In this document: positions 22,737-49,760 of the stretch, one piece after another | Numbering within the stretch: the first letter of the stretch is position 1 | How the letters are laid out: every line of letters starts with the position of its first letter | NCBI RefSeq assembly: GCF_042242105.1 | Contig: NC_092033.1 | Coordinates: forward strand, 7,972,908-8,036,907 | DNA from: Pempheris klunzingeri | Lineage: Eukaryota > Chordata > Actinopteri > Acropomatiformes > Pempheridae | Direction of reading: 5' to 3' | DNA length: 64,000 nt | Program-made: the position numbers and the translations under genes | Notes under the pieces: generated by a model | What the model saw: the letters and a program-made list of their open reading frames with translations, nothing else | What the model was told of the DNA's origin: nothing | Database searches by the model: none

Positions 22737-23846
22737 AGGTGTGCTCCAATTATCAGGGTGTCACACTGCTCAGCCTCCCGGGGAAAGTCTACTCCAGGGT
22801 GCTGAAAGGAGGCTCCACCCGATTGCCGAACTTCAGATTCTAGAAGAACAATGCGGATTCCGTCCTGGTCGTGGAACAGTGGACCAGTGGACCAGCTCTT
22901 TACCCTTGTGGGGCTGTTGGAGGGGTCATGGGAGTTCGCCCATCCAGTACACATGTGTTTTATAGACTTGGAGAAGGCCTATGACCGTGTCCCTCAGCAA
23001 ATCCTGTGGGGGGGGGATACTGCGGGAGTATGGGGTATTGCTACAAGCTACTCAGTCCCTGTTTAACCAAAGTGAGAGCTGTGTCCGCATTCTCGGCACA
23101 AAGTCAAGCGTGTTCTCAGTGGGGGTTGGACTCCGCCAAGGCTGCCCCTTATCATCGATCTCAAGGCGCAGCCGAGGAGAGGAGAGTATCCGGTTTGGTG
23201 ACCTCAGAATTGCATCTCTGCTTTTTGCAGATGATGTGGTTCTGTTGGCTTCCTCAGACCGTGACCTTCAGCATGCGCTGGTGCGGTTTGCAGCTGAGTG
23301 TGAAGCGGTCGGGATGAGGGTCAGCACCTCTAAGTCTGAGGCCATGGTTCTCTGCCAGAAAAAGGTGGATTGCCCCCTCTGGGTTGGGAGTGAGTTGCTG
23401 CCCCAAGTGGGGGAGTTCAAGTATCTCGGGGTCTTGTTCACAAGTGAGGGTAAAATGGAGCACGAGATGTTCCTTGTAGCAGTAATGCGGCCGCTGTACC
23501 GGTCTGCTGTGGTGAAGAAGGAGCTGAACCAGAAGGGGATCTACGTTCCCACCCTCACCTATGATCATGAACTCTGGGTAATGACCGAAAGAACGAGATC
23601 TGAAGCTGAAATGAGTTTCCTCCGTAGGGTGTCTGGGCTCAGCCTTAGAGATAGGGTGAGGAGCTCGGAGTAGAGCCGCTGCTCCTTCACATTGAAAGGA
23701 GCCAGTTGAGGTGGTTTGGGCATCTGGTCAGGATGACTCCTGGTCGCCTCCCCTTAGAGGTTTTCCGGGCATGCCACTCAGGGAGGAGACCCCGGGGCAG
23801 ACCCAGAACCCGCTGGAGGGATTACATCTCTCGGCTGATATGGGAC
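22737..23846 (+). mobile_element. 5'-truncated, broken LINE (non-LTR reverse transcriptase)
   Basis: Frames on the plus strand match the reverse transcriptase of a LINE family very common in teleosts. Visible pieces are the GVTLLSLPGKVYSRVL start block (LLSLPGKVYSRVLKGG), the FRPGRGT block, DLEKAYDRVP, VGLRQGCPLS and the catalytic LLFADDVVLLAS (FADD at 23224-23235). These are followed by SKSEAMVL, EFKYLGVLFTSEG, ELWVMTERTRS, and a C-terminal RPRGRPRTRWRDY-type tail near 23790-23825. The pieces fall in different frames with stops. Short stretches are deleted after VGLRQGCPLS, after TSEGKME and before YVPTLTY, so it cannot encode a working enzyme. The 5' part (including any endonuclease domain) is absent, as expected for target-primed insertion. 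I cannot fix the clade; an I/Nimb- or L2-like type are both possible. Confidence 0.9.
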
Positions 23847-49381: not shown

Positions 49382-49411
49382 CTGAGAGAGAGAAAGAAGG
49401 CATGTGATTGG

Positions 49412-49438
49412 CTAGGCCCAAATGCCCTCCTCATCATC
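49412..49438 (-). CDS. erc1: erc1 alternative C-terminal exon (GIWA, RIM-binding form)
   Basis: Reads GAT GAT GAG GAG GGC ATT TGG GCC TAG: DDEEGIWA and stop. It sits 322 nt after the donor of exon 49761-49868, directly behind an AG (49439-49440) and in the correct phase, so the spliced product ends ...NNHKPSPDQ-DDEEGIWA. In mammals the brain forms ELKS-alpha/ERC1b and CAST/ERC2 end in exactly this kind of EEGIWA tail, whose last residues bind the PDZ domain of RIM1/2 at the presynaptic active zone. The peptide match is decisive. The acceptor itself is weak (ACTAACCAATAG, little pyrimidine tract), fitting regulated use. The end of the exon is unknown: it may run to a poly(A) site or share the donor at 49360. 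Confidence 0.88.
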   Translation of the reverse strand, partial: DDEEGIWA

Positions 49439-49760
49439 CTATTGGTTAGTTCAGTCCGACCGCAGCGTGAGTTTGGAGAAAGCAGGAAGTTAGTTTGTCA
49501 AAGCAGAAAATTGTAGACAAACATAGTAAGAGCAGAAATGTTGGAAAATTAAAAAAAAAAAAAACACTAACTAGTAACAGTTAAATATAGATACTTAGAG
49601 AAATAAGTAAATGTTACACTAAGACTTAGACTTGCTAATGGAAACAATAAGAAGATTGAGTTATTTCAGAGCATGCTTTTCATCCACATAAGGTGAGGAT
49701 ATTAGTTTTAAGTGGTGTGCAGGAGCAGGTGAAGGTTCAGTATCTCTGCGGGGAGCTGAC

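Follow-up and report, generated by a model that had tools for sequence, protein, structure and literature searches.

Both mammalian ELKS genes give rise by alternative splicing to proteins with a longer (A) or a shorter (B) C-terminus. According to the cited passages of PMC5830537, the B forms of ELKS1 (ERC1b) and of ELKS2 (CAST/ERC2) end in GIWA, this end binds the PDZ domain of RIM, and B is dominant in neurons, ELKS1 A being mostly peripheral; a figure legend of the same article gives GIWA as the end of C. elegans ELKS also. Excitatory synapses of ELKS knock-outs have a smaller releasable vesicle pool, which in the same passages is rescued by fragments devoid of the RIM-binding end, so that this tail is not to be assumed essential for the releasable pool. 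Both A and B variants bind active Rab6, as indicated in the cited part of PMC7360120. The fish gene described here is similar to mammalian ELKS1-B in that a GIWA C-terminus and a longer A form are encoded by one gene and would be chosen by splicing, and it shares the GIWA end with ELKS2-B and with the C. elegans protein.

With regard to regulation, mammalian ERC1b is presented in a review as having an additional exon subject to PTB repression outside neurons (PMC10913846, in the section concerned; its legend gives ‘non-neuronal’ twice, probably a slip). An Erc1 exon is altered in Ptbp2-null brain and is a PTBP1 target in HeLa CLIP (PMC3896118, eLife), an Erc1 cassette exon of the mouse embryo was validated by RT-PCR (PMC2898759) and Srrm4-mutant mice show splicing defects in Erc2 and other genes (PMC3464207); the relevant parts of these three articles leave the exon unspecified. 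Erc1 variants are also treated in PMC3798291, whose cited part does not settle the last exon of the B form. The string EEGIWA was absent from the literature matches listed.

We analysed C22:7972908-8036907 of the Pempheris klunzingeri genome (646 Mb), a stretch of 64 kb hereafter called the window, in which the gene of interest lies on the minus strand. Profile searches identified in this gene the Cast family (PF10174, E 3.6e-30) and, further downstream, the RBD-FIP domain (PF09457, E 5.5e-9, over the cut-off). The Cast match covers an upstream coiled-coil coding stretch, with approximate limits 58799-58656, and more Cast exons are located on C22 past the window edge, on the same strand. The constitutive exon 49868-49761 encodes TQNRMKLMADNYEDDHLKVSSPNSEQPNNHKPSPDQ and closes with HKPSPDQ in phase 0; ELKS1 8ij9 has the same residues QNRMKLMADNYEDD. 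A query made of the coiled-coil stretch and the start of this exon gave a 98-bit match to 8ij9, the solved Rab6-binding region of ELKS1. The A-form tail is encoded by a first exon of 186 nt (44037-43852, ILSPLLDLNQNRSKLKLYI...) and by a last coding part carrying the FIP domain (29737-29600), which ends in ALEDSC followed by TGA. An assignment of the gene to the ERC1/ELKS1 type is thus supported by the FIP exons, the tail sequence and the 8ij9 match, in agreement with the preliminary description, which had named it fish erc1 and had proposed the FIP-RBD form as the alternative product. Past the last coding exon, a reverse-transcriptase fragment (RVT_1, E 6.2e-10) was observed on the plus strand at 22966-23670, probably from a non-LTR retroelement.

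After the last shared exon and ahead of the A-form exons lies, in phase, a segment encoding DDEEGIWA and a stop codon. The minus strand reads ...ccaatag|GAT GAT GAG GAG GGC ATT TGG GCC TAG from 49438 to 49412; the intron separating it from exon 49868-49761 measures 322 nt, and the two would be joined in phase 0. In the six frames of the entire window there is a single GIWA with a stop directly behind it. Re-reading of the letters confirmed the octapeptide, the stop, the phase, the distance and the preceding AG exactly as first reported, and the end of the peptide corresponds to the motif reported as ligand of the RIM PDZ domain (cited passages of PMC5830537), which agrees with the initial proposal of an alternative GIWA-stop exon. 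The same octapeptide is encoded on C5 and C11, and DDDEGIWA on C2. The B form of human ERC1 ends in DEEEGIWA, from which the fish peptide differs.

We searched the whole 646-Mb genome with a degenerate pattern for DEEGIWA, GAYGARGARGGNATHTGGGCN. Three matches were obtained, for a random-sequence expectation estimated by hand at ~0.1, and none with the reversed pattern used as control. They are located on C22, C5 and C11, each about 2 to 9 kb from Cast-family exons. Since the three matches all fall in ERC genes and the reversed control gave none, the DDEEGIWA-stop at this locus is not a product of chance. The fourth Cast locus, on C2, was missed by the pattern; the 48 Cast-family matches listed are all on C22, C5, C11 and C2. 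Across the four paralogues, every difference within the eight GIWA codons is at a third position and a single one changes the residue (E to D, on C2), and the stop codons are TAG, TAG, TGA and TAA.

From their tail features, the loci on C22 and C5 look like ERC1 and those on C11 and C2 like ERC2. Among the 10 FIP-family matches listed genome-wide (13 candidates scored), those at ERC loci are on C22 and C5 only, and this family search found no FIP exon at C11 or C2. The latter two have His/Pro-rich penultimate exons, which we take to be an ERC2 character; on C2 this exon carries a very long His/Pro/Gln-rich run, much longer than that of C11. We also looked for a shared downstream last exon of C11 and C2 by blastn (plus strand, E up to 1e-3), and the three rows obtained were all simple repeats. 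Introns near the gene end are far shorter on C5 than in the window copy. Conservation as used below was measured across these four ERC paralogues of one genome.

The preliminary description had taken the exon to be 27 nt long. We found that this length covers the coding part only. Within 200 nt after the acceptor, each of the four paralogues carries exactly one GTRAG, at +78, +78, +66 and +68, and each lies inside a GGTGAG; in the window, the predicted 5′ splice site is the GT of GAAGG|GTGAGC, at 49360-49359. GGTGAG occurs in ~2% of sampled 86-nt stretches of the window minus strand, so that its presence at the exon end in four out of four paralogues, although these are not independent of one another, would not be expected by chance. 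Furthermore, blastn comparison of C22 with C5 gave an 89-nt block (77.5%, E 8e-14) that starts five bases ahead of the exon and closes with GTGAGC. This block is stronger than that of the first A-form coding exon (E 1e-4), but weaker than those of exon 49868-49761 (E 7e-15) and of the FIP exon (E 9e-20). For the 120 nt past the stop, the window and C5 aligned with a score of 35, reached by none of 1000 shuffles (best shuffle 34). The score of the intron past the donor was reached by 206 of 1000 shuffles, and those of five control flanks by 251 to 528 of 1000. No such likeness links the untranslated half of the erc1-type copies with that of the ERC2-like ones: over the 120 nt past the stop, the five other paralogue pairs showed nothing above shuffles (371 to 688 of 1000 reaching the score). 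Because the donor is kept and C22/C5 conservation ends at it, the exon is most likely a cassette of 78 nt with an in-frame stop, 49438-49361, with 51 nt from stop codon to donor, rather than a terminal exon. At the sequence level, acceptor and donor sites are present in all four paralogues.

These limits bear directly on whether the GIWA exon might instead extend into the intron and be polyadenylated there, as was implied in the preliminary description, which asked for the 3′ end of that transcript to be mapped. Taken alone, the window is compatible with such an end, since its 5323-nt intron holds seven AATAAA/ATTAAA hexamers, the earliest being an ATTAAA ~1.0 kb past the donor, with AATAAA occurring from ~2.2 kb on. 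The corresponding 684-nt intron on C5, however, is devoid of AATAAA, ATTAAA, AGTAAA and TATAAA, the C5 likeness stops at the donor, and mammalian ERC1b is described with an additional exon (review PMC10913846, section concerned). An alternative terminal exon is therefore unlikely, given a donor conserved in all four paralogues. If the exon is a cassette, its inclusion might serve mainly to control message level, with little GIWA protein made from this copy. With both FIP exons spliced on, 237 nt would separate the stop from the last junction, and nonsense-mediated decay, for which the usual limit is 50-55 nt, would then be predicted. Nevertheless, the distance from stop to donor is 51, 51, 39 and 41 nt in the four paralogues, which is inside this limit if a single junction follows (51 nt in the window if the last exon is joined directly). 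Moreover, the octapeptide is identical in three of the four copies with silent changes only, which decay alone does not need, and the B form is dominant in mammalian neurons (cited passages of PMC5830537); we regard a role chiefly in level control as very unlikely.

Splicing could also use an AG inside the exon, at 49382, whose tract is 94% pyrimidine and much better than that of the GIWA acceptor. The resulting micro-exon, 49381-49361, would add FAVLYRR through 21 nt in frame with ILSPLL and would keep the FIP tail. Although a like tract and AG are retained on C5, using that AG there would leave 17 nt, with a stop reached after six codons, so that no peptide is conserved, and we give this tandem acceptor hardly any credit. 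Finally, the poor acceptor of the window might point to a relic, an exon kept by descent in a copy that has lost its splicing. Codon changes relative to C5 are silent only, and phase, stop and donor are intact, against what a relic predicts; of a loss of splicing we find next to no prospect.

For the cassette reading, the acceptor region deserves closer description. The acceptor AG (49440-49439) is pyrimidine-poor, with 41% in positions -20 to -4, the corresponding values being 59% for C5, 53% for C2 and 82% for C11; in line with the preliminary description, which had called this site weak and had suggested regulated inclusion, the acceptor is probably regulated. It is preceded by an AG-free zone of 126 nt (49566-49441), a long zone of this kind being the usual sign of a distant branch point. 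On the window minus strand, 0.2% of AG-to-AG gaps reach at least 125 nt; the zone measures 105 nt on C5, 75 nt on C11 and 63 nt on C2. A candidate branch point CTAAC, with its A at 49490, is found at -52 in the window and at -50 on C5, beside other candidates. Over the 120 nt upstream of the acceptor, homology between window and C5 is not above shuffles (298 of 1000 reach the score), and for this reason the shared upstream CTAAC and GCTGCG[AG]TCGG can be called suggestive at most.

A CU tract followed by AG, 49399-49382, occupies part of the untranslated half of the exon and may be a PTB site or a second acceptor. A like tract is present on C5. The ERC2-like copies on C11 and C2 differ from the window gene in this respect, their GIWA exons having no CU tract, as they do in the FIP exon. 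We scored PTB-type motifs with our own short list, against background windows of 338 nt at all four loci: the exon region stands only at the 92.6th percentile within its locus for the window, at the 99.4th for C5, the 12.4th for C11 and the 49.2nd for C2. The Rbfox motif GCATG does not occur from 200 nt before to 300 nt after the window exon; like spans hold two on C5, one on C11 and one on C2. The poor acceptor, the AG-free zone and the in-exon CU tract fit a PTB repression of mammalian type, by analogy with the ERC1b exon. PTB control in the fish would thus have a precedent in mammals, in the account of the cited review section (PMC10913846).

Taking these results together, we consider it very probable that 49438-49361 is the neuron-type B exon of ERC1/ELKS1 in this fish, a 78-nt cassette with an in-frame stop acting as an A/B tail switch. 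When the exon is skipped, exon 49868-49761 would be joined to 44037-43852 and then to 29737, and the protein would end with the FIP domain (A form). Inclusion would give a protein ending in DDEEGIWA (B form), whose GIWA end has been reported to bind the RIM PDZ domain, and would leave the FIP exons untranslated or partly skipped. Inclusion is expected in neurons, with the acceptor presumably used through a distant branch point, and elsewhere PTB may repress the exon via CU tracts around and within it. The DDEEGIWA tail would then be predicted to bind RIM. A more elaborate scheme, which we put forward tentatively and hold to be rather improbable, would make the exon of both erc1-type copies a double device: its coding half would set the tail, its untranslated half would be a silencer tied to PTB, and survival of the message would be set by the downstream exon joined. 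Dependence on the joined exon would follow from the stop-to-donor distance, at most 51 nt in all four genes.

The fish exon is real and conserved, and its biology is essentially known, since the A/B switch is established in mammals (cited passages of PMC5830537). The kept donor and the conserved untranslated half make the exon model 49438-49361 concrete, and both erc1-type copies indicate that a fish retains the option of either a RIM-binding or a FIP-domain tail for ERC1. Gene prediction could miss so small an exon, and fish annotations that contain the FIP form only could therefore lack the presynaptic isoform.
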